Assembly: GCA_021234535.1 (NCBI GenBank)
Contig: CM037841.1
Location: 15,954,825-16,018,824, forward strand
Direction of reading: 5' to 3'
Origin: Stichopus chloronotus
Taxonomy: Eukaryota; Echinodermata; Holothuroidea; Aspidochirotida; Stichopodidae
DNA length: 64,000 bases
The position numbers were made by a program, and so were the translations under genes. Positions 24,336 to 50,806 of the stretch are shown here, one piece after another. Positions within the stretch are counted from its first letter, which is position 1; every line of letters begins with the position of its first letter. Below the pieces are notes generated by a model, which was not told the origin of the DNA, made no database searches, and was given only the letters and a program-made list of their open reading frames with translations.

Positions 24336-24366
<31 letters not shown>

Positions 24367-25139: not shown

Positions 25140-26308
25140 GCTACCTTGTAAGCACGATATGCCAAGAAAGAAACATTTACAGATCTCATATTTGGTGTGT
25201 GGGTGAATCGTACAATGAGTAAAAGGAGCCTACAGCCTTATATCTAGTATGTAATGGAGCCTTAGTTTGGACAAGAAGCCTATTGTTTTAGTGCGAGGCC
25301 AAATGTCAAAATGTCATTTGATGGTCAACAGGGGTCAAATATTGAAAACCCTGTAAACAACATTATATCTCAAGAAGAGAAGCTTGGATAGATCTCACAT
25401 ATGGTTTGTTGGCGTACCATATTAAGTGCAAGAAGCCGATTGTTTTTGGTGAAGGTTAAAGGTCATGCCCCATCCACAGGGCTCAAGCAATTAAAATCTT
25501 GTAAACACAATATCCTAAGACGGAAAACGTCTACAAATATCATATTTAGTAGGCTGATGTACCTTATTAAGTAGATGAAGTTTGTTGTGTCTGGTGGAGA
25601 TCAAAGGTCATTTATGGGTTAACAGGGTCAAAACGTGGAAACCTTGTAAACACGATATCTCAATATGGGATGCTTTTCAAATCTCATATTTAGTGTGTGA
25701 GTGAGCCATCGTGAACACAAGAAGACCATTGTTTTGTGAAGGTCAAAGGTCATTTGTGGTCAGTGGGGTCAGATAGTTAAAATTTTCTAAGCACAATATC
25801 TCACTAGATTAAACTGGCACATAAATGGCATATTGATAAGTGGGTGTACTTTATGAAGCACGAGTAGCCCAACGTTTTGTTGGAGGTCAAAGGTCGTTTA
25901 TGGTCAACTGGGTCAAGTAGTGAAAACATTGTAAACACAGTATCTCAGGAAGTAAGATTCAGGAAAATAATTCCTCATGATGAATTCATCGAAACCACAA
26001 TATATTTATGCATTCTGGTTTATATGTCAGTTATCGCCAATTATTTACAATTCATTATGGAAAGTTAATTTTAAGTTCAGTTATTTACATTGAATAGAAT
26101 GTTCTGTGAAGTTTTGTGTAATATTCAAATAAAAAGGATCATTAACATGTCAGTTGTTTTACTGAAAGGTAATTTCACGACGGTAAACCTTTTATGTTTA
26201 CTGTATGATTTGCCTTGAAATTACGAGTGAAAAAAGTTTGTTTAGTAGAATATATAGAAACTAAAATGAAAAATACTGATTACTCATTGCTACTTCAGTC
26301 TCACTTTT

Positions 26309-27820
26309 GGTTTCGATAAAATCGTAACCCGTGTAATCATGAAGTGTATCTATGTGTGTGTATGTATGTATATTTGTGACAGCTACATTGTAAATAAGGT
26401 ATCTCAAAGTGGGAAGCATGTGCAGATCTCATATTTGGCTTGCTTGTGAGCCTTATTAAGGGGATGAAGTTGATTGTTTTTGGTGGAGGTCAAAGGTCAT
26501 TTGGGGTCAACAGATTTCAAAAAGTGAAAACCTTGTAAACATAATATCTCATAAAGGAATCATGTACATATCTCATGTTTAGCATGTGAGAGTAACATAT
26601 CAAGTATAAAAAGGACCATAGGTTTTGGTGGAGATGAAAGTTATTTGGGGTCAATAAGGGTCAAATAGTAAAAACATTGTAAGCACGATAACTCAAGAAG
26701 GGTAACATGTACAGATCTTATGTATGGTATATGTATTATTCATATATTTCACATATTACACAATAAATGTACACTCAATATGTATCATATTAAGTGTACC
26801 AAAAGCCTATTGTTTTTGGTGGCGGTCAAAGCTCATTTGGTTCAACATGGGTCAAATAGTGAAAACCTCGTAAACACGAAATCTCAGGAAAGGAAACTTG
26901 TACAGATCTTATACTTAGTATGTAGGTAAACCTTATTGAGGAAAAGAAGCCTATTGTTTTAGTGTGACGTCAAAGGTCATTTGGGGGTCAACAGGGGTCA
27001 AATATTGAAAACCTTGTGAACATCATATCTCAAGAAAGGAAACTTGTACAGATGTCACGTTCAGTATATAAGTAAACCTTATCGAGGACAAGAAGTTTAT
27101 TATTTTAGTGAGAGATCAAAGGTCATTTGGGATCAACAGGGATCAACTACTGAAAACTTTGTACACATATTATTTTAAGAAGGGAAGCTTCAAGAAGGGA
27201 AGCTGAGATAGATCTCATATTTGATTTGTTGGTGCACCATATTAAGTGCAAGAAGCCTATTGCTTTGCTTAAGGTCAAAGATCCTTCAGGGTTCACAGGG
27301 CTAATATATTAAAAACCTTGTAAACACAATATTCAACGGGGGAAAACTTCTACATGTCTCATACTTGCCATGTAGGTGTGCCTAATGAAGGACAAGAAAA
27401 CTGTTTTGGGATGAAGGTCAAATATCATTAATGCTTCAATAGGGTCAAATAGTGAAAACCGTGCAAACACAATATCTAATATGGGAAGCTTTTGCAAATC
27501 TTTTGGGTGAGCCTTATTGAGTACAAGTGCCCCATTGTTTTTGGTGGGGGTCTAATGTCATTTGCCGGACAGAAGGGTCAGATTATCTTTGTAAGCACAA
27601 TATCTCACTAGGTTACACTTGCACATGCATGTCATACTGGTAAGTGGGTGTACCTTATGAAGCCCAAAAAGCCTAACGTTTTGTTGAAGGTCAAAGGTCA
27701 TTTAGAGTCAACAGATGTAAATTGTGAAACCTTGTAAACACAATATCTCAAGAAGCAACATTAATGAGATAATTCCTAATGATGATTTCATCGAAACCAT
27801 GATGTATTTGTGTATTCTGG
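26309..27820 (+). mobile_element. HINE-like element 2
   Basis: Head hairpin and subterminal repeat GGTTTCGATAAAATCGTAACC (26309-26329) and tail repeat GATTTCATCGAAACC (27784-27798), 14 of 15 matching when inverted. A short GT/TATG tract (26340-26375) follows the head, then about nine tandem units of roughly 150 bp. The end is GTATTCTGG followed by TT (27820). Perfect DR1 motifs lie at 26487-26499 and 27688-27700, with one- or two-base variants in most other units (near 26822, 26968, 27113 and 27275). Confidence 0.65.
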
Positions 27821-28373
27821 TTTTACCTTGGGTACGTTGTATGGTCGAAGGTTGTATTTTCACACTCCAAATATGATGGGTTCTCGTGTAAAAACGTGTT
27901 ACTAATTCTCTTGGAGGGTATCATCGGAGCATCCCGATTTATTGTTGCCTATTTTGCATTTTTTTCAGATTTGCCACTTACCTGTCAAAGATATAGTTTA
28001 CAAAGGTAAAGGTTCTAAACCCCGCACGGAGAAAATCCCGAACACATAACTGTAGTGTGGTTTTGATGACTTCATAATATGACATATCGCATACGGCGAT
28101 ATGTTTCGTTTTTCTTTTGTGATATTACATCAACTTATGATTTCACCACTTAAGATCTAACAACTACATTGCAAACAATGCCATCTGCTGCCCTACGTTG
28201 ATAACTGATAGGCACATTATCATATATCTCAACATGCACAACTGCATACTACATAGTAGTATAGATGTCCACATGCATGTCCTGTGAATATTGAAAAATC
28301 GACTCTTCTTTTCAAAGATGATCCCCACCAAACATGATAGTTACTTGTGGTCGATACACCACTGCATCTACAT
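27821..28373. other. Unassigned DNA
   Basis: No feature could be supported. Confidence 0.5.
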
Positions 28374-28670
28374 AAGATATGAGAGCCCATTGCCGGCTTT
28401 CCTCTTTGGAATATGATGTTCACAAGGTTTTCACTATCCTGCAACTGTTGACCACAAATTACATTTGACCTCTATCAAACACAATAGGGTATTGTACTTA
28501 ACGAGGTATATCCACCCATGAAATACAACAAATGTCCATGCATCCCTTCTTAAATATCGTGTTTACAAAGTTTACTGAGTTTGACCTATATTGACCTCAC
28601 GCGACTTTCGTCTAGCACACATAGCAATCTGCATTTTATACTCAATGTGGTGCACCTACACATCAAATCT
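28374..28670 (-). repeat. HINE-like tandem-unit fragment, minus strand
   Basis: About two degenerate units in reverse orientation: 'cctctttggaatatgatgtt', 'tttgacctctatcaaacaca', 'tatattgacctc' and 'actcaatgtggtgcacctac' mirror the units at 25-27 kb. No head, microsatellite or tail was found and no DR1 is intact. Confidence 0.6.
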
Positions 28671-29202
28671 GTCGTGATTTCCCTTTGATTGTTCAAAGGT
28701 TTAAACTATTATAATTTAGTCGGAGACTTACAATGTCTTTTAACGAGGCGGCAGAACACTTTTTATTTAATGACTTAATCATTTTCTTACCTACCTTCCT
28801 GTAGTAATCCCTTTACGAGCATTTGAGCCGTAACTATCAAGACTGCTGTTGCATGGGTTATTTCATGTGCAAACGTTTCGTACAATGTAATATATGTTTA
28901 AAATACTCTACCATAGAGTAAAAGAAAATCAAAATCACCAACTACCCCCGATTGCGACATTGTTAATTCTTTAACAGTAGTTTAAATGTTGAGGTACGTG
29001 GATTTTCCACTACCACTAACTTTTCACTCGCGGTCGGAAACCTAGTGTTTAGGGCAGCTCTATTAACAAAATAATACACTTTTTCCGCAGGTGCCTGCCA
29101 CTTGTGAATTCCATTATAACGTCCAAATGTTAGTAAATCAGATGCTGACTTGATGTTGCACATTCTCTCTTTCAGTTGCTTCCAGCTACTGTTATCTAAG
29201 AT
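28671..29202. other. Unassigned DNA
   Basis: No feature could be supported. Confidence 0.5.
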
Positions 29203-30066
29203 GACCCATTAGTGCCACCGGAATGAAAAATAAACCACTGTACCACACAGAAAGAAAATTAAAGCACTGTACCACAGAGAAAAAAAAAACTACTGTACCA
29301 CGGAGACAAAAAATACTAATCTGTCACAACAGATTAAATCATCTGTCATAACAGATTAAATAAAATTTAGACCACAGTAATCTGTCGTAGCAGATTAAAT
29401 AATCGGTCATAACAGATTATTCTATCTGTCATAACAGATTAAATAGTCTGTCGGAACAGATAAAATAATCTCTCATTGCAGACTAAACAATCTGTCTTAA
29501 CAGATTATTTAATCTGTCGTAACAGATTATTTAATTTGTCGTAACAGATTATTTAAATTATTAAGAATTATTTAATTATTAAGAATTCTTAAGAAACTAT
29601 TGCCATTTTACGGTTACCTTCTAGTTATTCAACATAGGAAAACTTTTTACACATCTACCTTGCAGCTACCTTCAGCGACGCTAGATTACTACCATGCACA
29701 CATGTTGCACTAGTTGCTGTCATTCCTTTATTGTAGCCTATACTCATAAGCGTACCAGCTGGATTTGGGGGTAAGATTTCATTTGCTTAATCTGGACGCT
29801 GTTTTAAGCGTTCACGCATGTGAAATAATGTTAATATTTGAAAAAAATCATCTGTTGCGACATTAAATAATCTGTTATGACAGATTATTTAATCTGTAAT
29901 ATCACAGATTATATAATCTGTTATGACAAATTATTTAATCTGTTATGACAGATTATTTAATCTGGTATGGCAGATTAGTTTTTTTTTCTCTGTGGTACCG
30001 TAGTTTAATTCTTTTTCTCTAGTACAGTGGTTTATTACTTTTTCTTTCTGTGCCAGTAATGGCCCA
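29203..30066. mobile_element. Inverted-repeat element filled with 22-bp palindromes
   Basis: The two ends are imperfect inverted copies of each other over about 120 bp. The left reads GACCCATTAGTGCCAC ... AATAAACCACTGTACCAC ... ACCACAGAGAAAAAAAAA; the right is the reverse complement of GGGCCATTACTGGCAC ... AATAAACCACTGTACTAG and so on. Inside each end lies a block of short palindromes of the form AATCTGT-NNNN-ACAGATT, spaced ~22 bp (29318-29560, about ten; 29845-29975, about six). The middle (29560-29845) is non-repetitive. No coding capacity. It looks like a small foldback or miniature element; no clear target duplication was found. Confidence 0.6.
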
Positions 30067-30990
30067 TTGTAGTTATCTTACTCAACCTACCCCGACAGTG
30101 TCGTCAGTAAAATTCTCTTCTAGTTACGAGATCTACGAACGCCTCGAGAATCCACTCTTCGCCTACTGCGCATTGGTGCATTTTGTTCTTGTTACCAGGT
30201 CTCCTACACGTGCAATAGTTCTTCCCTGTCAAAACACGTAATCTCCTGCTCCCAGATCAGTTCGAAGATCTTAAACTAAATAGTATCATCTGTCCAATTG
30301 ATAAATTATTTAGAAGACCTTGCCACATGCTCGTTAGTCAGAGTTTATCTTAATCGGGTCTTGACCAGCGCAACGCAAAGCGAAGAAAGCAAGGGCATAA
30401 CATTTGTCTTTCTTCACTGTGCAAAAGGCAAGCTGCAGCTTCAACAATTTCTAACAGATCTGAGAATCCAGCAGGGTGCCTTGCTTTCCAATAATGACAC
30501 ATTTGGAGAGGACCTTTCCAATCTTACTCAGGATAACCCAATGTGAATTTCTTATGTGGATTTTTGTACAAATTCTGTAAAAAAGTCTAAGTCTCTGTCA
30601 CAAGTTAAGAATAACGTGTGTAAGCGCTTTAGCCTCTACTAGCCTGCTCAGCGCACAACAGCAGTTTCGTGAAACTACTTTTTCTTTTAATTAAACTGAG
30701 CGAGTTTTTCCTATATTCAATTTGACGCTTTTGCCTACAATCGAAAGCATATTTTACTGAAGAAAATTTATTTTTTAAATCTAATTAAAGGTTCATAAAG
30801 ACAAATTGATATGGCACTTCGTTGACTAACGTTTATGGTTTTGGGTGCAGCCTGAGTGTTAAATTGGTTGCAGACACAGAATTTATTTCTGTGGTTGCAG
30901 ACGACATACCGGAAGCCGCTTCAATCCATGGAGTTGCGGAGCTCATCGCTAAGTGCTTTACTGATATAGGCCTAACGTTAGTAGTTAAAT
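30067..30990. other. Unassigned DNA
   Basis: Two short open frames (30050-30241 and 30298-30546) have no recognisable domain. No repeat structure seen. Confidence 0.45.
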
Positions 30991-31119
30991 TCACAGGTCC
31001 TCCTAGCGTTAAGTATAAACTATTACCTTACCCTATATATGTATACACTATTACCTACCCCTATATACGGTATGTAGGGGTAGGTAATAGTTTATACTTA
31101 ACGCTAGGACGCCCTGTGA
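30991..31119. repeat. 129-bp hairpin with ~46-bp arms
   Basis: The arms pair TCACAGG...TCCTAGCGTTAAGTATAAAC with its reverse complement. The central 27 bp of each arm (from CCTAGCGTTAAG at 31002 and ending CTTAACGCTAGG at 31108) match perfectly and the outer 8-10 bp match with about three differences. The loop is ~50 bp of CCCTATATA-type sequence that is itself partly complementary. It is probably a very small MITE or a fresh inverted duplication. Confidence 0.85.
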
Positions 31120-31622
31120 TGGCAAGCACTGGTCAGTGTCATTTATAATATTTCGTCTGAACTATCTGTCGGACCAGCTAAATGAGCTTGATAACTACAA
31201 CTTATTTCCCATGCTCCGATCTCACTGAAATTTGAAGAATTTAATGCCAACTGACACACAGAGACGATCGCATGAAATTATCTATGTATTGTCAAGAAGA
31301 ACATAAAACGGTGAACCATAAAGTCAGACCGACTCTGATTACACACCTAACCCTAGAGTAGGCCTGTAGCGTTCATGCGTCCATTGGCTTTCCAAAGTTT
31401 CTCTGACTGCAGTAAACTTAATGTGATTGGGGCGCTCTCGCCTACCAAAAACTTTTCAGAGAAAGTTTGATGCTGCTCAGCTACATGGGAAATATTGTAT
31501 TGTTTGATAATTCACGCGTATTTTTTCAAGTTCATCTTTCGTTGTTACGTCCGTTACTAGTTTCTGAAGCTTTATTGCGTAGTGTTCCGTGTATTCAAGA
31601 TTCACAAAACAGTATATTTTAC
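31120..31622. other. Unassigned DNA
   Basis: No feature could be supported. Confidence 0.5.
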
Positions 31623-32596
31623 GGGTGTCTATAAAACGAAGACCTCTAAAACGAAGACCGAAGACCAAAAACCCGTTCAAATGACGAGCAACTAAACAAA
31701 GAGACATACACTGTTCTGCCAAACTGCCAAACACAGAGTCAATAAACGTATCCCGTTTCTGGGAGAGTCTTCGTTTTCCGGTCTTCCTTTTAGAGATTTG
31801 CAATATTACTAAAATCTATAAAACGAAGACCGAAAAACGAAGACCCTATCGATGTATCAACCAAAGCATTATTTAACCGACTTCCATTATCGGCGGCGCT
31901 CAAATAAGTATTTTTCTTGCAGTTTAATTAAGTTTAGCCCATCTTGATGTTAATACCAGCAAGGGAATACATCAAGCTGAAGTTCGTTAGTAAAGTGGAT
32001 TCTTAACTTCGAAGCAATACAATGTAAATCCCGACCCGTTTATCAAATTTAAGGTTCAAAACTGTACGTGAACAAAGATTTTAACCCTATTTTCTATGCG
32101 TTATGTTTATTTCTTGTTTTAGATACGGGTCTTCGTTTTCCGGTCTTCCTTTTAGAGATTTGCAATATTACTAAAATCTATAAAACGAAGACCGAAAAAC
32201 GAAGACCCTATCGATATATCAACCAAAGCATTATTTAACCGACTTCCATTATCGGCGGCGCTCAAATACTGTAAGTATTTTTCTTGCAGTTTAATTAAGT
32301 TTAACCTATCTTAATGTTCATAACAGCAAGGGAATACATCAAGCCGTTGTTCGTAAAATGGATTGCTAACTTCAAATACAATACACCGTACATCCCGACC
32401 CGTTTATCAAATTTAAGGCTCAAAACGGTACGTGAACAAAGATTTCAACCCAATCTTCTATGCGTTATGTTTATTTCCTGTTTTAGATACGGGTCTTCGT
32501 TTTCCGGTCTTCCTTTTAGAGATTTGCAATGTTACTAAAATCTATAAAACGAAGACCGAGAAACGAAGACCCTATCGATATATCAACCAAAGCATC
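31623..32596 (+). repeat. Left arm of foldback element
   Basis: Terminal segment (31623-31766) and two full ~361-364-bp units plus a final hairpin. Each unit has an ~82-bp imperfect palindrome (31767-31844, 32127-32208, 32491-32572) of the form GGGTCTTCGTTTTCCGGTC ... GACCGAAAAACGAAGACCC around a GCAATATTA loop, followed by ~280 bp of unique spacer (ATCGATATATCAACC..., AACCGACTTCCATTATCGGC...). Confidence 0.9.
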
Positions 32597-35500
32597 AGTT
32601 GACGGTGATAGTACCATCAAATGTTTTCTAAAAAAAAATAGCACCTAAGAACGCCGGAAATCTCTCTTCCCTGGCCCCACAAGTGATCTCAAAAGGTAAT
32701 CTACAGAATTTTCTTCAAAGGGACAATCGGAGTTTGATAGAGAAAATTAACCTTTTGTAATTCCAGCACATCAATTTCCTTTCTAGACTATTTACCAGAA
32801 TATAAAGACATTGAGAAGGACCTTCAGGTGAGGAGAAACTTTAATTATTGTGTTTATTACCGTTGAATAAGAATTAATTAATATTTTTCGGGTAAAAAAA
32901 TGTTTCTTTGCAAAAGAAGACAGCTTCCTCTACACTGTGACCAAATCACAACGTTAACCCCTGATGATAGATTACCAACTTCACGTTTATAGGTCTATTT
33001 GCATTGCAGATTGTCGAAATAAAGTCACGTCTGTCTCATGCTCTAACGCATCATTCGCAAATTGTTGCACCACAACAACAACCTCAGACTTCGGTGTGAC
33101 ACAGTAGTGTGTGCAATGGTGGGCGCAGGAGGACTATGCCTCCCACCTCTGTCAGTAGTCGGAAGAAAATCAGATGGTCGGGAGAAATCGGAAGCAGTCT
33201 GGACGAGTGTAGCGAGCAACAACAGCTCTCCCTTCCCAATTGGCCGTCAGACGTGTTTTAATATGCTTCAAAATGTTTCAAATATAGCACCATTTTGCAT
33301 CTCAGCCCTCACCCCTCCCCTTAGACCCTCCCCCATACAGCAAAATGATCAAACCTTGCGGCCCCAGGCTCTCGACTTTTGCAAATGTTAACCGTTAAAC
33401 TATATAATAGCAGTTCCTGATGAAACTGTAAATCCTGTTTCTATAACGATAACTACCTTCATATTTGTCATTAGATAGTGGCGTGAAGCATATATAGCCC
33501 TCTTCCCTTGAGCATACTTTTGGTAAGGTATAATGTTAATATTTTACTATATGGCTATAGTGTTTTCCTATTCATGTGCGGTAAGGAGGCTTTGGAAGTA
33601 CCATCTTCAGCAATCTGGGAGGTATTAGCCAAAATTTCTTCACGGCGCTTCGTGTCAACTCTTGATGGCGCTGAGCGCTGGGAGTCTGTCTATGGGCTTT
33701 GCCCCTACACTTGACAAAAAAAAACAAAACAAAACTGGTTACGCCCCTGTCATAAGGAGGAACGATTTTGCATCTAGCCAGATAGACGTTCTCTCCATGC
33801 CAGTCAGTCGGGGGGATTACCAAAGTTCGCAGTCTGCCTCCCCCCACCTCGCAATTCCTGCCCTGCTACTGGAGTGACATAGGCTAGCCTATTCTGCTTG
33901 ATGATGACTGCATCGATATCGATAGGCCTATATCTATTGACCTAGTTAGGTGTAGGTCCATTCCCACTGGCATCAGCGATTTCTTTTAGTTTGTTAATTC
34001 TAGTAAAGAACAATAATTTCCCTCACCCCTCTTCCTTTCCGCTTTTGAATATTACAGCTTTAAGGGAAAAGTCACCACAAATTGAAATAGGCCTAGTGTA
34101 GTATTACCGCAGTAGCCTATACCCTAATTCATGAATGGCTCTTGAGAATCATGTTACCTCATTTTTCTCTCTGAACTGTAAAGTTTGTGAGGAGTAACTC
34201 TTTGCTTTATCTTGGGTATGCAATATTAGACTAAGTCATGAAATATAATGAAAAATACTTGGAAGAGAAATATAAAGGAATTAGTGAGAATTAGGCCAAG
34301 CAGTTGTTTCAAAATAAGTCTGGATCTACAACTTTTGCCCTTAAAATACATTTATGTAATGAAAAAACACTGGCCATCATTCGTTGTTCAAGCTGCCTGA
34401 GCGCCCTTGTATTGTCCGGACGGATCGGTAGGCCTATGTCCATTGATATATCGATCAATATACGCATGGGCGTCCACAGAAAAAAATTCAGTGGTAAAAA
34501 ATTTCTAGGGGTGGGCAAAAGCTCCGCGCCACCACAAGTTGGCTCGAAGCACAAGAAAATTTTGGCCTGCAATGCCTCCCAGATCGCTGTAAATGCCATT
34601 TCTAAAGCCTACTCACCGCATATAGCCTAAGCAGTGAAAACACATTTTGTTCGGGTTTTTCTTTATTTTTTATACGTGTTCTCAAATTTTTGATTTTCCA
34701 GGAGGGGGGGGGGGCAAGTACTTGACAATGCCTGCGGACGCCCACGAATATACGGTACCGGTAATTGTGACCCTGTAGGCCTAATTATTCTAGACAGCCA
34801 GAATGAGGAAACCCGACAATGTGGGACTCCCTCCGTTTCGTATACCTCTGACCGGTTTGGACTACCATCTAGCCCCCCCCCCCCCAGCTGCCATAAAACC
34901 CCACAAAATGTCATTTTGTGGAAGCCCGTTTCTGTAGGGGACGTGAGTCCCGCAGTACCCATGCTTAAAGCAGGCCCTCGGGAAAGTGATCCGAAAAAAA
35001 AGTCTTCAACCCCCCCCCCCCCCGGCTAAGAACACCTTGTGCTTATGTTTGTATGCCTAACGTTACTAGTCTTCTAACCTTATAACCCTAAACAGTGAAA
35101 ATATCCCTCGATGGGATAAAGCCTGCTATTAATGAAAACAATTAGATTAATCTAGGCCATCCGCCTAGGCTAAAACAATTAGGCCTAGCCTATTTGATGT
35201 GTTGCCTTTTATATACGGAGCAACACAGTAGCCTATTTTATATGGAGCTCGATATCGGTTCACGTGGGCACGTGGGTGTTTTTCCGAGGTTTCAGATTTT
35301 GAACTACCAAGACACACATTCTATGTGTTGTATGTTATACTTACATCGTTTACGAAGGCCTCGAAGACCATGAACTCGTTAAAATGGTTGTTACAGGCTT
35401 GCAAGAATAGTGAAAACGACGCAAAAATCAAAGCATGAAGGTTTCCTCAATAGAGCTCAGTGGAGGATTGCCCTCCATTCAACTGGAAGGCTGATTCCAA

Positions 35501-35866
35501 GAAAACACGGGGTCATACGATGGATCTCTACCATAAACAATACATTTGTTGTACTGTTTCTGCAATCTACTTAGGGCCTACAGTTTTTAAATGTTGGAAT
35601 GATCGAATGTGGCGGTTTTTACACTTTAGCAGGCGTTCCATTTTTTCATAGATTCAATATTTGGAAATCCAAGGCTGAAATGCTTCTTCTTTTCAGGAAG
35701 CACATTTCTTAATACGCTTAGAGGCAGGGGTGCACACCTCTGTTTGGGGGTGAGTGTGTGTGGGGGTGGGGGGCAACATGCATGTAGTGTACGCGTCGAA
35801 TGTGAAACTGTGCACACGAAACCCACAATGGGTGGGGTTCAGGGGCCCGCCATGCCGAGGTCCAGG
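32597..35866. other. Unique middle of foldback element
   Basis: About 3.3 kb between the arms. No transposase or other domain could be recognised in any frame. It includes homopolymer C or G runs (34705, 34866, 35010). A segment at 33250-33360 (CCATTTTGCATCTCAGCCC...CTCCCCTTAGACCCTCCCCC) has relatives at 38190-38280 and, weakly, at 41395-41460, so at least one dispersed repeat lies inside. Possible captured or nested DNA. Confidence 0.4.
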
Positions 35867-37199
35867 ACATATCGATAAGGTCTTCGTTTTTCGGTCTTCG
35901 TTTTATAGATTTTAGTAATATTGCAAATCTCTAAAAGGAAGACCGGAAAACGAAGACCCGTATCTAAAACAAGAAATAAACATAACGCATAGAAAATAGG
36001 GTTAAAATCTTTGTTCACGTACAGTTTTGAGTGTTAAATTTGATAAACGGGTCGGGATTTACATTGTATTGCTTCGAAGTTAAGAATCCATTTTACGAAC
36101 AAACGGCTTGATGTATTCCCTTGCTGGTATGAACATTAAGATAGGTTAAACTTAATTAAACTGCAAGAAAAATACTTATTTGAGCGCCGCCGATAATGGA
36201 AGTCGGTTAAAGAATGCTTTGGTTGATATATCGATAAGGTCTTCGTTTTTCGGTCTTCGTTTTATAGATTTTAGTAATATTGCAAATCTCTAAAAGGAAG
36301 ACCAGAAAACGAAGACCCGTATCTAAAACAAGAAATAAACATAACGCATAGAAGATTGGGTTGAAATCTTTGTTCACGCACATTTTTGAACCTTAAATTT
36401 CATAAACGGGTCGGGATGTACGGTGTATTGTATTTGAAGTTAGCAATCCATTTTACGAACAAACGGCTTGATGTATTCCCTTGCTGGTATGAACATTAAG
36501 ATAGGTTAAACTTAATTAAACTGCAAGAAAAATACTTATTTGAGCGCCGCCGATAATGGAAGTCGGTTAAAGAATGCTTTGGTTGATATATGGATAAGGT
36601 CTTCGTTTTTCGGTCTTCGTTTTATAGATTTTAGTAATATTGCAAATCTCTAAAAGGAAGACCGGAAAACGAAGATCCGTATCTAAAACAAGAAATAAAC
36701 ATAACGCATAGAAAATAGGGTTAAAATCTTTGTTCACGTACAGTTTTGAGCCTTTAGTTTGATAAACGGGTCGGGACGTGTATTGTATTTAAAGTTAGCA
36801 ATTCATTTTACCAACGAACTTAGGCTTGATGTATTTCCTTGCTGGTATTAACATCAAGATGGGTTAAACTTAATTAAACTGCAAGAAAAATACTTATTTG
36901 AGCGCCGTCGATAATAGAAGTCGGTTAAATAATGCTTTGGTTGACATATCGATAGGGTCTTCGTTTTTCGATCTTCGTTTTATAGATTTTAGTAATATTG
37001 CAAATCTCTAAAAGGAAGACCGGAAAACGAAGACTCTCCCAGAAACGGGATACGTTTATTGACTCTGCGTTTGGCAGTTTGGCAGAACAGTGTATGTCTC
37101 TTTGTTTAGTTGCTCGTCATTTGAACGGGTTTTGGTCTTCGGTCTTCGTTTTAGAGGTCTTCGGTCTTCGTTTTAGAGGTCTTCGTTTTAGAGACACCC
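35867..37199 (-). repeat. Right arm of foldback element
   Basis: Reverse-orientation units with palindromes at about 35879-35959, 36238-36318, 36598-36678 and 36955-37035, spaced 357-360 bp, then a terminal segment (37036-37199) that mirrors 31623-31766. It has one unit more than the left arm. Units within the arm differ by only a few per cent. Confidence 0.9.
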
Positions 37200-37514
37200 A
37201 TCCTCTCTGGAGCACCGCAACCTAGTCTCCAGCGGATCAACTTAACGCTACCCTACGCAGCATTCATGAACTCGAACATTATTACCTTAGGGCCTATCTG
37301 TATTAGAACGAGTTTCTAGAGCCTGTGGTCGACCACTGCGTGATAGAATACAACTTATTCACTTTAAATGCCCTACAGCTCATACTAGCCCGTGGATTGT
37401 TACTATTAGTTTTACACCAGCTATAACTTCGGAGGTTAATTTTTCTAAACTGAACTAAATTGTTTATCCAGTGCTCTCCTCGCGATAGCGCTAAGCCTGT
37501 ATTCCTCAAGAAGC

Positions 37515-40400: not shown

Positions 40401-41136
40401 GGCTGAACCCATGGTCTTTTTACCATGGGGTACCCCTGGTGTGTCGCAACTCACCCTCTCCACCTGTTTCCATGGCAACCGTTTTGCAATGAATGTACAG
40501 TACAATATGTACTAGCTCCTCTAGCAAAGTGACTACAAAATCTCATCTTAGCCCCTATAGGGGGATGAGTTAAAAATTTCTGTATTGTCTACTGTTCACA
40601 TTTGGTAATTTTTTAAAACTAGGGCATTCAAACATAGAGTTAATACTTGAAAATGTGTTTGCTGTTTTCATGATATGTGACTCTTGACCTATGATGTCAT
40701 CAGTTGGTTGGCACTATATCACAAACCTAGGCATCTGCAGTATACCCACCAAGTTTGAAATTTATATTACTTGCCATGTAAGAGGAGATTGTAGCATACT
40801 TTTTCTGATTACTTGCTGATTTTACATTTAACCATGTGACAGTTGAACTTGTTATGTCATCAATATTTTGAAAATGTTTCCTGTATTGTCTACTTTCCAT
40901 ACTTGGTAGTTTTTGAACATTCACACAGAGATGTTTTTATGACCCTTGACTTTTGATGTCATCAGTTTGGTGGACACTATACCATATACCCAGGCACCTA
41001 CCCATGAAGTTTGAAGTTTATCCGACTTACCATCTACTGTACATGTAGGAGGTACACAATTTCTTTTGCACACATACTGTACACACAAACGTCATCACCA
41101 TCGCATAGATTCTTTGCCTGCCTTCGGCAAGGAATC
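40401..41136 (-). mobile_element. Possible HINE-like element with a different tandem body, minus strand
   Basis: On the minus strand this begins at 41136 with GATTCCTTGCCGAAGGCAGG, the same head as the element at 47639, then 'atctatgcgatggtgatgac' and a degenerate GT tract. The body, however, consists of about two ~270-bp units with the phrase TGACATCATAGGTCAAGA or TGACATCAAAAGTCAAGGGT instead of the DR1 units. A clear 3' end was not found, so the left limit is a guess. Confidence 0.45.
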
Positions 41137-43784
41137 AAAAAAAGAACACAGAGTACGATATTACAGACAACTTTTTAGGTCATCATTTTTGTGATTTGCA
41201 ATACACCCATTAAACAATTGCGCACATAAAATTACATGCGTGTTCTCCAATGGATGATTAGGGCTGACCTGGCAACGAAATAGAATGGTGATACCTGTAC
41301 AGCTCTACTAACACAAGGACCTGGCTTGGCTGCAAAGAGTAAACAATAGGCTTCTGCCATTTTAAAATAGAGCAACTGTAATCTCTAATTGACACCACTT
41401 TGCATCTCAATAATTAGAAATTCTTTTGAGGTGAGGTTGAACCCCTCTCCAACCACTGCTTGATAGTGATCGCTCATGTGTGACTGCCCCCCCCCCCCTT
41501 GCTTCTGTAGGGAACACTGTAAAGATTAATTACTGTTCTCAAAAGTCTAGTGTTACAAACAACGCACAAATAACCTACAAATGCAAATTAAGGGGAGTTT
41601 AAAGTTTGAAAAAAATGCAAAACATGACATATGGAGTGTTGCACAGTGTCCATTTTTCTTTTGTTTACCCTTTTTTCCCTCTTAATTACTTTATTACTTA
41701 GTTTCACATTGGTAAGTGATATTGATATTTTTGAAGGAAAATATACATGTATACTTCCAAAATAAAACCCTTTTGGAATATTAAATTCTGAAATGTCCTT
41801 GAAATAAAGGTTACATAAACAAAGGATTAACATGAAGACAAACAGGTATCGTACTCCATCTCTTGACGTCAAAAATTTGCATACTTAGCCAATGTTTATT
41901 TATGACACAGCTGTGAGACACTATAGTTGCCTGTAAATTTGTCAATTTTTGACAGATTTGTATGGAATTTGTGGCTACTGTATTTTTCAATGGTTTGAAA
42001 TTGAATGCTTCATGCATCCAAAACTCCAAAGTGTCATTTTCATGTCACACCACCTTTAACACAGTACAAAAGATATGCATAGAACAATACAACTTCAGAG
42101 ATTTATGATGTTTTTTGGCACTGAAATCTATTACTTTTGGAGTTGAAAACTTTGCATACATTATTACAAGTTAATAAAAAAATACTATAACCAAAAGAAC
42201 TTCTTTCTGCCCTCTTCTTTTAAATCATTTTAAATTGAAACTGTTAACATTTTGATAAATGTATTCAGGTCAAACTTTTACATACCAGGGAGTAACTATG
42301 ACAGAAAGCAACTGCCTGCCTGGTCATTTACTGATATACTGCCGTCAGCCTTATGGTCACGGTGATTGCTACGTAAGATGCCAAATAGTAAGATGCCAAA
42401 TAGTTATGGCGGAAAAATCTTTTTTTTATATACTTATCTTCATATATTCTGATGTTAGCGTTGTATTTTAACACAATTAAGCAATCTGTTTCACAAGGTG
42501 GGCTATTTATTGCCCAGCATGTAATGGTAATCTAAGGAGAGCATTTTGATACTCACCTTGGGAAGTATTTTTGTTTCCAAGGCAGGGGTGTTTATGCAGG
42601 CAATTGCCCAGGACATATGACCAGCAACTAAATTTCCATGCATGCAATGTTTATCTTGTAAGCAACGTTTTATTTTGCTTCATTTGCGAATGTTTAGTTT
42701 TCATTTTAATCATTAAGAAGGCATTTTACTGGGACAGATGATAGTGGATAATCCTAGTTTGTGCTGTACACATCATAATGTTTACAATATAAGCAAGTAC
42801 TTACGGCAATTCACACAGTTACTTTTAGCAAAGATATCACACATTTTATGCTGGTGTGTCTCAAACTGTTAACTGATTGTGGAAAACATTACAATAGGTC
42901 CCTGCTTCATATAATACCCCAGGCAAGGAAATATTTTACTACTGACAGCTGTACTGTCTGGTTGCTGCAGTACAGTTCACAGAACAATCAGAACTTTTGT
43001 CCGATCACCGACAACAATCTTGCAAACAAGCTACTATTTAGCAATTAAATGATGATTGGCAGATGTTTCAGGCTGAATTTGTAGAGCGTGGTGTTTATAC
43101 TGTATGCTGCAGAGCTTGTCACATCACTTTGTATGTAGTGCAATGATGTAATCTGTAATCTGATAATACTTATAATACAGTATCTAATGATACTGCAGAT
43201 GGGCATTTGTAAACTGGCTCACATGAATGATTTGCCGTACAGGCTGAGGAAAGTGTACACGGGTGGGACTTTGATAAGGTCACCAACAGAATTTCGCTGA
43301 TGAGCCAAACAAAGAGAGTTAACTAGTTTCAAAAGCGATGTTAACATTCCCTTTGAAACAAAAAAACAAACAAAAATTGTGCAGATCCTCTAAACTCACA
43401 GGCCTTTCTTTCTGTGTGTCCCACATTATTTTCGCGCATACAATATTTTACCAGAGGTCTCGGGTTATAGTGAGCGCTAAGTAATAAAAATATACTGTAT
43501 CCGTGATTGTACAAACAATCAATGGAGATCATTGAATTCTCTGTATTTCTTACAATCATCCAATGAAAGCTCTATAGTCACTCCAGGCAAAGTAAAAAGC
43601 ACTGAAAAAATTGTGGAATAACCTTTTGGTTCTTTTGCATTGTATAAAGTTACTACTAATTAACCCATGATTACAATTACTTTAGCGTTGTACTGTAATT
43701 CATTATGATTACAATTTCTTTTCAATTTTCCCAAAGTAATAGATTGCAATTGCTTAAAATATATGTGATCATTCGTAATCAAGT
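41137..43784. other. Unassigned DNA
   Basis: No gene is supported. A C10 run lies near 41488 and a 15-bp tandem duplication (AAGATGCCAAATAGT) near 42378-42405. Confidence 0.45.
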
Positions 43785-43899
43785 ATGATTCTGATTACAA
43801 TTACACTATGCCTGGTGTATGCATGCTTATGTTGTTATCACGATATCTTGAGAAATTTAGATAATATACTGAGAGCTTTCATACTTTGTATGTACATCC

Positions 43900-44560
43900 C
43901 ATATCAAGTAGAAGAACCCTATGGTTTTTTTTTGAAGGTCAAAGATTATCTGAGACCACCGGAGGTCAAAACACTGAAAACTTGCTTAACACAGCATCTT
44001 AAGATTGCAATCATGAAGTTCATGTGAGGTCTGCAGAGGTCAAATACTAACAACATTGTTAACATGATACTCTAGATAGGAATCATGGAAATTTTTGAAA
44101 ATCAGCATGTGAGTGGGTTATATCAATAGAAAAACCCTGTTGTTTCTTGTGGAAGTCAAGAGTTATTTTGAATCAGCAGGGTCAAATAGTAAAAGCATTC
44201 TAAACATGATATCACCAATAAGGGGAACTTTGACAGATATAATTGTATGGGTGGAGGTCATTTGAGGTCACCAGTGGTCAAATGTTGAAAAGTTTGATAA
44301 TGCTGTATCTCAAGACACAAATCATGGAAACTGTTGATACTTAACATTGTGAATGCATTATTTCAAATAGACAAACCCTTTTATTTTTGGGAGAGGTGAA
44401 GAGTTATTGAAGGTCCTTTGAGGTCAAACACTGAAAACCTTTCTATACAGTATCTCAAGATAGGCATCATGGCTACTTCGTATCCTAACTATGTAGTTTT
44501 CCCATATTACGTATATGAAGCCTACTTTTTTTTTAAAAGAGGTCAAAGATCACAGGTATT
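43900..44560 (+). repeat. HINE-like tandem units, headless
   Basis: About four diverged units ('gaaggtcaaagattatctga', 'ggaggtcaaaacactgaaaa', 'ggtggaggtcatttgaggtc', 'gtatctcaagataggcatca'). No head or microsatellite precedes them and no DR1 is perfect, so this is an old copy. Confidence 0.6.
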
Positions 44561-44699
44561 TAATCATCATCAAAACCTCAAGTCTATGGACTCTGGTTAT
44601 GTATTTTATGAGAATAGTTGTAAGCATTGTCTTTTTTATTCTTTTATGTGTGTCATTTATTCTAGTGCCCACCATGCTATAGCTAAAACAGTGGTTTTT

Positions 44700-45204
44700 G
44701 GTTCCTTGTGTCAGCAAAGGAACCTATGCAGTCAGGTTGGCGTGTGTGTGTGTGCATCTGTAACACTTGCTTAGGTACGCTCTAACTCAATAGGGGAAAG
44801 TCAGATAAAAGTCAAACTTGGTATGTAGGTTCGCTTTATTGAGAAGGTGTGCCCTATCGTTTTTGGTGGAGGTCAAAAGTCATCTGGCGGTAGAAGTCTG
44901 TTTTGCTTGGGTATGCTGTAACTCAATAGGGGAAAGTCAGATGAAAGTCAAACTTGGTATGTAGGTTTGCCACATTGAGATGGTGTGCCCTATTGTTTTT
45001 GGTGGAGGTCAAAGGTCATCTGGGGGAACTGGGGGCAAAAGTCTGTTTTGCTTGGGTATGCTCTAACTCAATAGGGGAAAGTCAGATGAAAGTCAAACTT
45101 GCTATGTAGGTTTGCCATATTGAGAAGGTGTGCCCTATTGTTTTTGGTGGAGGTCAAAGGTCATCTGGGGGAACTGGGGGCATAAGTCTGAAAACCTTGT
45201 TATG
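44700..45204 (+). mobile_element. HINE-like element with three units, 3'-truncated
   Basis: Head hairpin GGTTCCTT-gtgtcagca-AAGGAACC (44700-44724), a short GT tract, then three closely similar ~150-bp units beginning 'ctaactcaataggggaaagt'. They contain 'ggtggaggtcaaaggtcatc'; perfect DR1 motifs are at 45006-45018 and 45151-45163, and the first unit has AGGTCAAAAGTCA. The tail is missing at about 45204. Confidence 0.65.
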
Positions 45205-46993
45205 TTATGGATGCTCATATGTTCCATCAGTCCCCCTCCAGTGCATCATGGAAGTATTGCTTGAGTTAGCGGTTTCTTGATCAAATGAGTAAGCAGCAGT
45301 GTGCTGTTTGCAGTACTGTAGGTGGTCACACCAGACAAGTTTTGGCTGGATCAGTTTACCTCCTCATGCCTGAGTGCTAATGTGTTCATTCATGTAAGTG
45401 TCTTTTCAATTAGTGAAGAGGGCAGAACACAATGAAAGAAAATAAGTCAGTTGGTGTTCTTACCAGTTTAAACTAGACCCCAGGAGTCCCCTCCAGGCAT
45501 GTTGTCAGTTTGATGGACTTTAAAGGGGCAAAGATGTGATAAGCCTTATTGCAATTTGCAGAGATACACAGCTGTTTGTGTTTTGTAAAATGAATGGGAT
45601 ATTGCTGTATATTGCAGTTCTAAATCAACATCTTCAATTCATTGCATTAATTGAAATGGCTTCTTTGGTATTTATGAACTCAGGCACATCATTTTACAGT
45701 ATGTATATTCCAAGTACAAGGAACCATAGTGCCCCTAGGCTGTTGTGAAAGCATGCTAAATACTTCTTCTCTTACAGATTGTATGTAACACTGTTGATGG
45801 TTGGTCACATTAGTGCTATGGAAGTGATTCCATGTGGGTGCATGTTTGTCATGTTTGGGGTCCAATGTCTGAAATGGGCCATTTTATAGAAGCATGAAAT
45901 ATGTTTCTCTCTCTACAGATTTTATGTTACAAAAGTGAGAGTTCATGGTCAGAAATGGACCATATAGGCTATCGTACAAAATAATGCAATATGCTCCCTT
46001 TTACTTCATATTTAACATTATATGCTCTCCATCTGTGCAAGGAACCAGAGTGGCACTTGTCATTAGATGTTTCAAAATTTGACAGAATTACTATGGTGCA
46101 GAAGCATACATGTTACAATCTATTTACTCTTTAGAGTATAATACTAAATCATGAAAAGATGGAATGACAAGTACTAGGTGAACATTTATTTCTTGGTTGC
46201 ATAGAACTGAAAGAAAAAATAAGTAGTCTGATGTTCTGCTTTGAACTACATGTCTTTGTATTGAAAGCTCACGATATGACAGGATTTGAACAAACACCTT
46301 CACCCTTCTACTTTCTTTGACGAAATTTGTTTAAAGGTCTGAACAAAAATATAAATAAAAGTGAAAATATTACTTGGCCATTGGACAGCTTGGTAAAATG
46401 ATGGAATTTGCTTACTTTAATAACTCATGTACAGTAAGTTGTATCAATGAAAAGAATATTTTAATTAAAAGAAAGATTAATCAGGGTAGATAAAACAACT
46501 GCCGACTTGCTAATGATTTTACTGAGAATCCCACAGTTTGGGGCAAATATAGTGACAATTTGCAAAAAGGTGCTAGAGCAAATCCAGCCAATTATTGTCC
46601 AGTGATTTTCAACTTCTTACTGTACCTGCAACCTTGAGCACATTGCAAATCATGATGAGAATCACATAGGTAATTCTCTTGTTCATGTCATCATAGGTTT
46701 CTTGAAGGTAGATTATAGAATATGTAGCTCACTAGACTTGAGGACCTTGCAAAATTTCTGTATCACAAAAGCCAGTGTCATGTGGTAATTGGGTTTCAGC
46801 AATGAAGTTTTCAACACAATTCCACATCAGTAATTCACAAAAGTTTAAGAACACTGACATCAACAACTGGCACTAAACAACTGGCTCTTGGATAAGTACT
46901 TTTCCAGCTGATTGACCGAGAGTTTTCCAAAAAAGGGATAGTCTTTTCAGATCCTTGTTACTCCATGGGTACCAGAATGAGCTGAATGTTTTT
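45205..46993. other. Unassigned DNA
   Basis: No feature could be supported. Confidence 0.5.
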
Positions 46994-47638
46994 GGTTTCG
47001 ATGATAAGAGAAACCTATGCATTCATGATGGCGTGTGTATGTATGTGTGTATGTATGTGCGTGCGTGTGTGTGCGTGTGTGTGTATGTATGTGTGATTGT
47101 GACACTTCTCGTTAAACACGATATCTCCAGAAGGGAAAGTCTAACATTTCTCAAACTTGGTACACAGATGCCCCATATGAAGAAGAAGAACCCTATTGTC
47201 TTTGGTGGGGTTCTAAGGTCAGCTGGGGTCACCAGGGGTCAGACACTGAAAACCTTGTTAACACAGTATCTCAAGTTAAGGAAGTTGAATGAACTTCATA
47301 CATAGTACTGTAGATATAACATAGTGAGAGGAAGAACCCTTTTGTTTTTGAGGAGGTCAAAGGTCATCTGAAGTCACCAGAGGTCAAACACTGAAAATGT
47401 TGTTATCACAATATCTCAAGATGGGAAACTGTGACAGTTCTCAAACTTGGTACATAGATGCCCCATATTAAGAGGAAGATTGCTTTTGTTTTTTATGGAG
47501 GTCAAAGGTCATCTGAGGTCACCAGAGGTCAAACACTGAAAATCTTGTTATCATGATATTTCAAGAAAAGAAAGTCAGACTGTTCTCAAACTTGGTACAT
47601 AGATGCACCATATTGAGAGGAAGATTGCTTTTGTTTTT

Positions 47639-47681
47639 GATTCCTTGCCGAAGGCAGAGGAATCTGTGCGATGGTGATGTC

Positions 47682-47714
<33 letters not shown>

Positions 47715-49990
47715 CGTGTGTGACGCCTGCTTGTAAACACGATATCTCAGGAAGCGTAACTCTGAGTGAACTCATACTTGGCATGTAGATTGCCCATATT
47801 GAGTAGATGATCCCTATTGTTTTTGGTGGAGGTCAAAGGTCATTTGGGGTCACTAGAGGTCAAAAGGTAAATACCTTGAAAATTGCTTGTAAACACGATA
47901 TCTCCAGAAGAGTAACTCTGAGTGATCTCATACTTGGCATGAAGGTTGCCCTTATTGAGTAGATGATCCCTATTGTTTTTTGTGGAGGTCAAAGGTCATT
48001 TGGGGTCAACAGGGGTCAAATTGTGAAAACCTTGTAAGCACGATATCTCAAGAAAGGAAGCTTGTAGAAATCTCATGTTTAGTATGTAGTTGCACCATGT
48101 TGAGTAAGGAACCCTATCGTTTTCAGTGGAGGTCAAAGGTCATTTGGGGTCAACAGGGGTCAAATTGTGAAAACCATGTAAACACGATATCTCAAGAAGA
48201 GAAGCTTGAGCAGATGTCATATGAAGTGGGTAGGTGTATCTTATTGAGTACAAGGGTCACCAGAGGTCAGAAGGTAAATACCTTGAAAATTGCTTGTAAA
48301 CACGATATCTCGAGAACGGTAAATGTGAGAGATCTCATAGTTAGCGTGTGGATTGCCCATATCGAGTAGATGATCCTTATTTTTTTTGGCAGAGGTGAAA
48401 GGTCATTTGGGGTCATGGGAGGTCAAAATGTGAAAAACTTGAATCTACAATATTTAAAGAACGGTCCTTCTAGTGAATTTTATACTTGTAATGTAGAATC
48501 CTCTTGTTGATTTGAGAACTTCTTTTAGGACATACCAACATAGTCTCTTCGATAATCATAAAGAAAAGATGAAGACAACATTAAATTTGGTATCAAAGAT
48601 TATTATTTTGCAAACCTTTTGCCACTATCCTCATAAGGACATGTGAGCATGCATGAATTGTAAATTGGAATTGATTAAATATACCACGGGTTATTAGCTT
48701 TATAAAAAGAACTAAATTACTGATCATTTGGATCAAATACCCTTGAGCGTGCATGAACTGTGATTGCTTAATTGAATGAATCAAATTGTAACTGACCCCC
48801 CTCTGTTCAAATTGGTCACTGTTATCTGACATAATTTATCACAGTTGACTGCCAGTAGAAACTACAATGTCCAGAATAAATCATACAGTCTGTTGAGCCA
48901 GGTGCTCAATGGACTTAACCATTTACTGTATAAACAGTGTCTCTGTTTAGCCCTTAAAGGGAAATAGGGCGTTTGTTTTACAGAAAACAACCATATTTTT
49001 AAAACCATTATTTGTGGACATAGAATGATAGATTATTCAAAAATAACGAATTACAGTAGTCTTATTTTCAAGGAATAAGATTCTCACAGATCAGAAATTT
49101 AGCTATTTGTTGCTCAACAATAATTTGTTCACCCAAACTTTTTAAAATTCAAATGATGCATCCGTTACTCATCACATGCATAATGTTTTTAGGAGATGAA
49201 GTTTTGACAGATATTTATTGATCAGACTGAATGGTTTAACAATGGTTAAGGCAAATTTCTTTGTATGCCATGTTGGTGTATTCTAAACACCCTATTTCAC
49301 TTTACAGTAGTTCAGGTAAGCTTTAAACAAATGACTACTGTGTATCAAACCAGGGAAACTTGTACTGTGTGTTGTGTCTTTAAGTAGACTAAAGGCAAAA
49401 TTGCAAGTCATGCTAGATTCTTGTTTAATAGGAATATCAGTTTTTGCTAATTTTCAAGGACCTCATAGCCATTGGGAAGGGCATCATGCCAAAAAATCAA
49501 ATATGAAAGAGCTGCCACCAATAGCTGTAACTCGACAAAATAAAGTGCTATAATTTTGATTAAATAAACATGTTTACCTTTTTATCAAGTTATTAGACAC
49601 GACAAAATATAATTTGTTCCCCTGCAGCATCATATCCGTTTGGGAGTTTTCTCATGTTTGTGTAGGTCAAAGGTTATTTGGGGTGACAAAAGGTCAAAAC
49701 CTTGTATGCATGATATTTTAAGGGTGATAAATAGGAGGGATCTTATACTTAGTTTGTGAATTGTTCATATTTAGCATGTTGATGGCCATATAGGGTAGGT
49801 GATCCCTATTGTTTTAAGTGGAGGTGAAAGGTCATTTTGGGTCACGAGATTTCAAAAGGTTTTGACCTTACTAAGATGGTATCTCAAGTAGGATAACTGT
49901 GTGGGATCTCATGCTTGTCATGTGGGCGATTCATGTTTGTTACAATATATATCATGAGGCAAGGAATCACTAAGCCTTTTGGCTTTCTAG
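47639..49990 (+). mobile_element. HINE-like element, inner copy, complete
   Basis: Starts GATTCCTTGCC (47639) and has the inverted partner GGCAAGGAATC at 49960-49970 just inside the 3' end. The 3' end has a hairpin AAGCC-TTTT-GGCTT followed by TCTAG (49990) and TT. Both junctions fall in the T run of a host unit whose uninterrupted form is at 47485-47510. Inside are a GT/TATG tract (47684-47722), tandem units with perfect DR1 motifs at 47830, 47996 and 48130, about 1.1 kb of non-unit DNA with a nested miniature element, and two more units near 49.66-49.95 kb. A hairpin followed by CTRR and T-T insertion are Helitron/Helentron traits. Confidence 0.7.
48954..49304. mobile_element. ~350-bp miniature element, nested
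   Basis: Imperfect inverted ends TTAAAGGGAAATAGGGCGTTT (read to 48974) and the reverse complement of TAAAGTGAAATAGGGTGTTTA, about 18 of 20 matching. A left TTAA is present; the right is TTAC. Probably a TTAA-type miniature transposon with a decayed flank. No coding capacity. Confidence 0.55.
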
Positions 49991-50806
49991 TTATGGAGGT
50001 CAAAGGTCATCTGAGGTCACCAGAGGTCAAACACTGAAAATCTTGTTATCATGATATCTCAAGAAGGGAAACTCTGACAGTTCTCAAACTTGGTACATAG
50101 ATGCACCATATTAAGGGAAAGAGGCCTCGTGTTTTTGATGGAGGTCAAAGGTCATCAGAGGTCAAACACTGAAAATGTTCTTAACACAACATCTCAAGGT
50201 AGAAATGATGGATACCTCCCATACTTAGTGTGTCAATCATTCATATCAAGTGGAAGAACCCTATTGTTTTTGGTGGAGGCCAAATGTCATCTGAGGTCAC
50301 CAGAGATCAATACTGAAATGTTAACATAATATCTCAAGGTAGGAACCATGGAAACTTTTGGTATGTAGTTTGTCAATGTTTTACATTAAATAGAAGAAGC
50401 CTATTGTTTTTGGTGGAGGTCAAAGGTCACCCTGGGTCAAAGGAGTTCAAATTGTTAAAATATTATGAACATAATATTGCGAGAAGGGAAGCATCTACAG
50501 AACTTGTATGGAGTTTGAAGCTGTGCCTTATTCAGCCAAACTAGCTTACTGTTTTCCACTGAGGCCAACAATAATTTGAGGTGAACTGGAGTCAAGTTGT
50601 GAAAACCTTGTAAACTTTCAAGGAAGCTTGGACAGATGTCATATTTGATTTTCAGGTGCACCTTATTTGGTGGAAGATGCCTATTGATTTTGTTAGAGGT
50701 AAAAACTCATTGGGGATCAACATATCCTCACAACATGCAATATGCCAGATTCAAAATACTCATACTGTAATTGAATCATCGAAACCACAATGTCCTGGCT
50801 TTCTGG

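Follow-up and report, generated by a model that had tools for sequence, protein, structure and literature searches.

Tandem repeats carrying perfect DR1 sites

We found that the arrays carrying perfect DR1 nuclear-receptor sites (AGGTCAAAGGTCA, two AGGTCA half-sites) in a 64,000-nt stretch of Stichopus chloronotus contig CM037841.1 (genome of 719 Mb; the whole stretch is hereafter the window) are probably the central tandem repeats of HINEs, which are non-autonomous Helentrons. The DR1 would travel in the core of the repeat unit, spread by rolling-circle copying, multiplied by duplication of the unit and decaying after insertion. The DR1 block changes more slowly than most of the unit, and the substitutions within it lack the pattern of selection for receptor contact.

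The 13-mer occurs 15 times without mismatch in the window, 13 times on the plus strand and twice on the minus strand, as a preliminary description of this DNA had counted, with the correction that one coordinate given there as 47996 should be 47986. Allowing up to one mismatch yields 25 matches, compared with a mean of 0.14 and a maximum of 2 in 100 dinucleotide shuffles of the window. The perfect copies are:

25740 (25740..25752), 26487, 27688, 45006, 45151, 47354, 47499, 47830, 47986, 48130, 49997, 50142 and 50417, plus strand: perfect DR1 13-mers, all within unit-model matches
1577 and 1865 (1577..1877), minus strand: perfect DR1 13-mers in the minus-strand array, within unit-model matches

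Upon searching the window with a unit model of 147 columns we obtained 49 matches, which cover 6,188 of the 64,000 bases and contain all 15 perfect 13-mers. Of these, 13 of 15 start at model positions 64-66; the other two, placed by an ungapped estimate at position 96 (the copy at 49997) and position 58 (the copy at 1865), are off register probably because of indels. The tandem period of the arrays is about 145 bp, and the constant place that had been ascribed to the 13-mer within a unit of about 150 bp is thus borne out. The unit core reads AGGTCA-A-AGGTCA-TTTG-GGGTCA-ACAG-GGGTCA, i.e. DR1 plus DR4, with half-site spacings of 1, 4 and 4, so that the motif has both the AGGTCA half-sites and the one-base spacing of a DR1. 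The extension GGGGTCAACAGGGGTCA, described earlier as often following the 13-mer, was read by eye in exact form after the 13-mer or a variant of it near 26980, 47999 and 48143, and elsewhere it is represented by variants. Half-sites number 1.89 per unit on the plus strand; the minus strand has 0.10, and shuffles give 0.25. The window is a local high of such sequence: 16 evenly placed 2.5-kb stretches of the same genome (40 kb) hold 2.4% unit sequence, mostly from locus L049, and the perfect 13-mer is absent from them on either strand.

Element ends and probable membership of the HINEs

Profiles of the element ends were searched over the window and 44 loci, of which 28 had been found via a DR1-containing 23-mer and 16 were evenly placed. 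The left end of the main family, LF1, is TTTTT-GGTTTCGATGATAATCGTAACC followed by a GT-rich microsatellite, and the right end, RF1, is ATCATCGAAACCACAATGCATTTGTGCATTCTGGTT; the common left end flanks several window arrays and was found at 6 of 8 other loci, the common right end in fewer. The left end forms a hairpin of the subterminal inverted repeat (subTIR) and the inverted repeat ATCGTAACC, and the first arm of this hairpin recurs inverted in the right end over 12 bp (GGTTTCGATGAT / ATCATCGAAACC, present in the window and in genome copies), followed in RF1 by the palindrome AATGCA-TTTG-TGCATT. Across the genome, RF1 has 2,553 matches at up to 3 mismatches (1290 forward, 1263 reverse), compared with 0 for a reversed-pattern control. 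When loci were fetched by the exact right end, 28 of 30 had units within 1.5 kb upstream, all 28 in one orientation. Fold z scores of three left-end hairpins were -1.8, -3.2 and -3.95. T is enriched before 26 LF1 matches, a set that includes antisense hairpin matches, and after 45 RF1 matches. The copies and their parts in the window are as follows:

1386..1428, minus strand: 3' end of copy E, RF1 with subTIR and palindrome (nhmmer E 6e-11)
1511..2180, minus strand: copy E, tandem unit array, left end not found (unit model)
24239..24372, plus strand: degenerate LF1 and (ATGT)n microsatellite, probably of copy A (E 4e-7)
25180..25954, plus strand: tandem units of copy A (unit model)
25982..26022, plus strand: RF1 of copy A (E 5e-11)
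26302..26358, plus strand: LF1 of copy B, with subTIR, inverted repeat and start of GT microsatellite (E 2e-13)
26423..27756, plus strand: tandem units of copy B (unit model)
27785..27826, plus strand: RF1 of copy B (E 1e-10)
28394..28672, minus strand: two old units (unit model), with a weak RF1-like end at 28032-28072 (E 0.0025)
43874..44553, plus strand: degenerate unit array of an old copy (unit model)
44697..44735, plus strand: left end of a third sequence type, hairpin GGTTCCTT...AAGGAACC, for the copy at 44806-45202 (fold z -3.2; sequence)
44806..45202, plus strand: units of the third-type copy, two of them 95% alike, DR4 half-sites lost and DR1 perfect in 2 of 3 (unit model; sequence)
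46987..47095, plus strand: LF1 and GT/TATG microsatellite of copy C (E 4e-15; hairpin fold z -1.8)
47145..47640, plus strand: units of copy C, left part, up to the T-run of the interrupted unit (unit model; join analysis)
47639..49991, plus strand: copy D, second subfamily, nested in a unit of copy C (join analysis; borders ambiguous by a few bases in the T-run)
47639..47672, plus strand: left end LF2 of copy D, hairpin with 5' subTIR GATTCCTTG (fold z -3.95)
47730..48465, plus strand: units of copy D, further ones at 49657-49899 (unit model)
49960..49992, plus strand: RF2 of copy D, 3' subTIR CAAGGAATC and palindrome AAGCC-TTTT-GGCTT (profile search; join analysis)
49993..50722, plus strand: copy C, remainder of the interrupted unit and later units (join analysis; unit model)
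50773..50811, plus strand: RF1 of copy C (E 1e-9)

In addition, at about 41136 on the minus strand a left end of the second subfamily is followed by diverged, longer-spaced repeats with CATAGGTCAAGAGTCA, forming a GGTCA cluster without DR1.

Copy D represents a nested insertion. When its flanks are joined at 47641|49995 (best score, 217), the rebuilt unit equals its neighbour at 113 of 116 positions, and therefore the arrays between 47.1 and 50.7 kb are a single copy C (46987-50811) split by copy D. The join 47638|49992 scores 216 compared with 217, restores a run of six T and leaves no target duplication. The landing place is a T-run immediately before a DR1. Copy D has a left end that folds as a hairpin, GATTCCTTGCCGAAGGCAGAGGAATC, and the right end CAAGGAATCACTAAGCCTTTTGGCTTTCTAGTT; RF2-like right ends were found at seven other loci (L012, L013, L014, L017, L022, L080 and L083), of which L012 and L013 share flanks. 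Left ends at L003 (1959-2016), window position 47639, L017 (2299) and L026 (3480) come after TTGTTTTT, and the T-run belongs to another unit at window position 47639 and, by eye, at L003; the arrays may therefore themselves be landing sites for further copies.

HINEs are defined by subTIRs, a left-end inverted repeat (in DINE-1 and Cg_HINE), a microsatellite, central repeats, a 3' palindrome and insertion into TT or T-rich sites without target duplication (as set out in parts of PMC4067079 and PMC7492417). The elements described here resemble DINE-1-like HINEs (PMC4067079) and Cg_HINE of Crassostrea gigas (PMC7492417), as presented in those parts, in each of these features. They have inverted subTIRs (12 bp in the main family), a left hairpin whose inverted repeat is complementary to the 5' subTIR, a microsatellite, a 3' palindrome in both the main family and copy D, and a central tandem array of constant orientation (28 of the 30 loci sampled by 3' end); insertion is T-rich and without target duplication, judging from one empty-site comparison and the T enrichment at the ends. 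The sequences differ, and the unit of about 145 bp with DR1 plus DR4 half-sites goes unmentioned in the relevant passages of the two papers. DINE-1-like elements in sea urchin and molluscs are mentioned in the same part of PMC4067079. The family, with sequences of its own, probably belongs to the HINEs, and from this membership we infer rolling-circle copying, with mobilisation presumably by an autonomous Helentron. A complete copy would comprise a left hairpin and a short microsatellite, then a unidirectional run of one to about nine repeat units (about 145 bp each), and finally a right end bearing the inverted subTIR and the palindrome. Such an element would land in T-runs, and the DR1 would be copied with it at each insertion and with each unit duplication, decaying afterwards. 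The earlier proposal that each insertion delivers a DR1 array agrees with these results, in that the arrays arrive with a mobile element and hold the DR1 in register in their units.

Several observations weigh against this assignment. The 9-bp subTIR of copy D (GATTCCTTG / CAAGGAATC) is below the 11 bp used in PMC4067079, the fold of three window right ends is weak (z -0.8 to -1.4), several window arrays have one recognisable end missing, and the excess conservation of the DR1 could be more than passive. Furthermore, the CTGG or CTAG before the terminal T's of the right ends fits the CTRR of canonical Helitrons as well. Canonical Helitrons begin with TC at the 5' end and finish with CTRR at the 3' end; the left ends seen here open with a T-run and GGTT or GATT, not TC. 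A Rep/helicase was not recognised by eye, without a family search, among the open reading frames of at least 90 codons in loci L058, L061, L068, L072, L075 and L079. The tandem period of 145 bp would also suit ordinary satellite or minisatellite DNA with a chance cluster of half-sites and no transposon; ends common to 2,553 places, the constant orientation and the nested insertion argue against it, and we consider it extremely improbable.

Conservation of the DR1 block across genomic copies

Next, we compared the DR1 block with the rest of the unit in four samples of near-full units. Sample 1 consists of 38 units from the window; sample 2 was drawn from up to 28 loci found via the DR1-containing 23-mer and retains 104 of 127 units after removal of 23 ascertained ones; sample 3 holds 123 units, neighbouring arrays included, from 27 loci that were reached by way of the 3' end only. 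Samples 2 and 3 together form a set of 227 units, all outside the window, in which substitutions were scored apart from gaps, and sample 4, the pool of 265 units, falls into 59 groups. Loci L085, L086 and L087 are mutually similar, and L087, a near-copy of L085, was left out of later counts.

In sample 1, the DR1 reached a conservation of 0.887 versus 0.740 overall with gaps counted (rank 2 of 135 windows), in agreement with site rates on a tree (0.74 versus 0.99); this sample overstates conservation because the window was chosen for its DR1s. In sample 2 the DR1 scored 0.831, with an overall mean of 0.738 that is pulled down by unaligned end columns; once these ends were handled, the values were 0.836 versus 0.793, with rank 10 of 126. 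The consensus of sample 3 is exactly AGGTCAAAGGTCA, and its conservation was 0.844 versus 0.772. The excess over the rest was 0.080 (locus-bootstrap interval 0.037-0.119), the rank 5 of 131 (bootstrap 1-28), or 2 of 131 after adjustment for base, and the tree rates 0.77 versus 1.00 (rank 6 of 131). In the pool, DR1 conservation was 0.848 versus 0.786, ranking 3 of 126. When only substitutions were scored in the 227 units, the DR1 reached 0.899, compared with 0.813 for the mean over windows of the unit (z 2.1, or 1.96 base-adjusted); whichever of the two measures is used, each of the top eight windows overlaps the DR1.

Pairwise divergence, calculated at five depths in the pool, which includes window units, gave ratios of 0.97, 0.95, 0.82, 0.70 and 0.59 for the DR1 against medians of all windows of 1.46, 1.32, 1.18, 1.12 and 1.00, with ranks of 8, 11, 9, 4 and 3 of 126. 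An apparent protection of the DR1 between old copies only was an artefact; upon leaving each window out of its own stratification, the DR1 is slow at all depths. As the samples and the pairs at all divergence levels agree, the DR1 block really does change more slowly. In independent genomic copies few parts of the unit are less substituted, and in the 227-unit set none is. The difference is modest: outside the window it amounts to 4-10 points, according to the sample and to whether gaps are counted. Decay at the rate of the flanking unit sequence, one of the outcomes named beforehand as counting against a role for the 13-mer, was not seen.

Similar arrays in other sources

Scans with a 22-mer returned no match in IMG/VR and none in GTDB, and two further patterns searched in IMG/VR also returned none. 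Paired 13-mers one unit apart were found at 2 IMG/VR and 11 GTDB loci. By eye, these 13 loci include five AGGTCAA-type simple repeats (L035-L038 and L040), one short degenerate repeat (L041), two loci with runs of N between the copies (L031 and L033) and three arrays of about 147-158 bp (L032, L034 and L039). The other two, near-identical IMG/VR contigs (L029, 5930-6087, and L030, 402-559), carry runs of AGGTCAAAGGTCAAT facing ATTGACCTTT, possibly a hairpin cluster.

L032 and L034 (from 1 to 3928) lie on contigs filed as a Bacteroidetes metagenome-assembled genome, and L039 (4900-5400) lies in a Bathymodiolus gill-symbiont assembly. The arrays are probably animal DNA despite this bacterial filing, judging from the hairpin end and GTCC-type microsatellite visible in L034 and the palindromic end in L039. 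L034 aligns with the Stichopus unit over 45 columns with a score of 52, compared with 27 for the best of 200 shuffles, or 34 versus 30 with the DR1 masked. With every GGTCA masked, the similarity of L034 and L032 is gone (24 and 25 versus a shuffle maximum of 29), and therefore common descent of the cores is not supported. Against the unit, L039 scores 32 and shares 16 bases, and the maximum among 200 shuffles is likewise 32; its reverse strand scores 35. GGTCA-rich cores thus recur in such arrays, among loci that were found by searching for the DR1. That HINEs of distant animals have kept a DR1 core since receptor binding aids their spread, as a very old, recurrent source of hormone-response sites, appears to us quite improbable.

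Receptor binding and alternative explanations

The slowness of the DR1 block may reflect constraint on the repeat, recognition by a protein of the element, low mutability, or weak selection for receptor binding. Under a selfish use of receptors, the DR1 and DR4 would recruit HNF4, RXR or COUP-TF type proteins, opening chromatin in the early embryo or germ line, and elements that keep their sites would be copied more. The DR1 being the least substituted block in the 227 units is in line with this, as are the strand bias of the half-sites in the unit (1.89 versus 0.10, and 0.25 in shuffles) and the rank of the four half-sites taken together, which is 3 of 107 placements outside the window, 6 in sample 3 and 2 in the window. 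DR1s are likewise present in the tandem units of three contigs, which a DR1 search had picked out of two other sources, probably animal, and part of PMC6927752 offers a precedent in Caenorhabditis Helitrons, whose heat-shock elements are reported to recruit HSF-1. However, the pattern expected of selection on receptor contacts, with half-sites favoured over the spacer and the spacing kept, was not found. Half-sites did not stand out significantly against spacers: their contrast ranked 21 of 107 in the units outside the window, 29 of 107 in sample 3 and 8 of 95 within the window. A DR1 depends on its one-base spacing, and gaps in the DR1 are above average (0.064 versus 0.035, z 1.3, in the 227 units), with lengths of 1 to 30 bases in 37 of the 227 units. 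The weakest motif base of sample 3 is G2 of the second half-site, with a residual of about 0; in the 227 units G2 ties for this position. HNF4alpha is reported, in part of PMC3252374, to rely on a CAAAG core rated more relevant than the half-sites; in the 227 units this core has a residual of 0.089, compared with 0.101 for the outer positions, and is thus conserved no better than they are, with G as the weakest of its five bases. The best base-adjusted 6-mer of sample 3, CTCAAG, lies outside the motif, and TATCTCAAGAAGG, which contains no half-sites, is about as conserved in the pool as the DR1 (0.851, gaps counted). Taken together, we regard selfish receptor use as rather unlikely.

It is also unlikely that the GGTCA-rich core would instead serve the machinery of the element itself as a site of recognition or recombination (by Rep/helicase, in single-strand binding or in change of unit number). 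The gap-counted peak lies 1-3 bp 3' of the DR1, other blocks are co-conserved and half-site spacing varies by source (1, 4, 4 here and 1, 0, 3 in L034), all of which would fit such a site. A host-beneficial mobile enhancer or receptor sink, as had been suggested initially, with insertions near genes kept for the regulation that DR1 arrays would confer, has precedents in Alu, namely HNF4alpha sites (part of PMC3252374) and DR2 retinoic acid elements (part of PMC1785376), and sample 3 holds about one perfect DR1 per locus (27 in the near-full units of 27 loci, neighbouring arrays included). The sites are, however, imperfect in most units: 27 of the 123 units in sample 3 are perfect and 38 of 123 have one mismatch, an RGKTCA-type DR1 is present in 33 of 123 and a DR4 in 36 of 123, and the perfect 13-mer is absent from 15 of 30 loci found by the exact 3' end. 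We hold this use by the host to be very unlikely. Under the passenger reading, in which the DR1 rides in the core of a HINE unit, the likeliest cause of its slower change would be constraint on, or low mutability of, the repeat itself, with receptor binding possible and not needed.

If receptors do bind, the genome may owe some thousands of consensus DR1 sites to a single transposon family, because about one perfect site per locus (27 in 27 loci) is multiplied by 2,553 ends; the extrapolation is based on copies whose 3' end is exact and overstates older ones. By our own arithmetic, about 20 occurrences of the 13-mer are expected by chance in 719 Mb at 38% GC content. The arrays would then be a tandem counterpart of Alu-borne receptor sites and Helitron-borne heat-shock elements. 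Like the Caenorhabditis Helitrons, as described in part of PMC6927752, they are rolling-circle elements spreading clustered transcription-factor sites, but HSF-1 recruitment and heat-induced nearby genes are reported there, whereas here the evidence is sequence alone. Like the Alu elements in the respective parts of PMC3252374 and PMC1785376, they are interspersed repeats spreading many nuclear-receptor sites, but Alu is a short interspersed element and not tandem, its HNF4alpha 13-mers lack a prominent CAAAG core, and binding has been shown for Alu whereas the present sites are known from their letters. In the open-licence PMC literature we found, judging by titles, no work joining AGGTCAAAGGTCA or TGACCTTTGACC with tandem repeats of this kind, or Helitrons or Helentrons with nuclear receptors. 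If there is no binding, the family cautions clearly against reading function into a motif in a repeat because its consensus is perfect, since such a motif can be a passenger.

Other repeats in the window

Rfam gave no match in the window at gathering thresholds, and a family scan of 10 open reading frames in the window gave matches to retroelement domains. Direct repeats of 300 nt at 51292-51591 and 54286-54585 are 98% identical, contain 18-bp TACCTCGTGAGGTCAATT repeats with AGGTCA inside and flank open reading frames with a zinc knuckle and an aspartyl protease; they are probably the long terminal repeats of a retroelement. Gypsy-like open reading frames are surrounded by 224-nt direct repeats (97% identical) at 11418-16994. 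Tandem units of about 360 bp, rich in GGTCTTCGTTTT, make up two inverted arms at 31653-32603 and 35866-37133, which are 96% complementary over up to 342 nt and resemble a foldback element. Finally, about sixteen 21-bp tandem copies of AAATTGATGTGATGAAGACGT occupy 54649-55133 and are open in two minus-strand frames.

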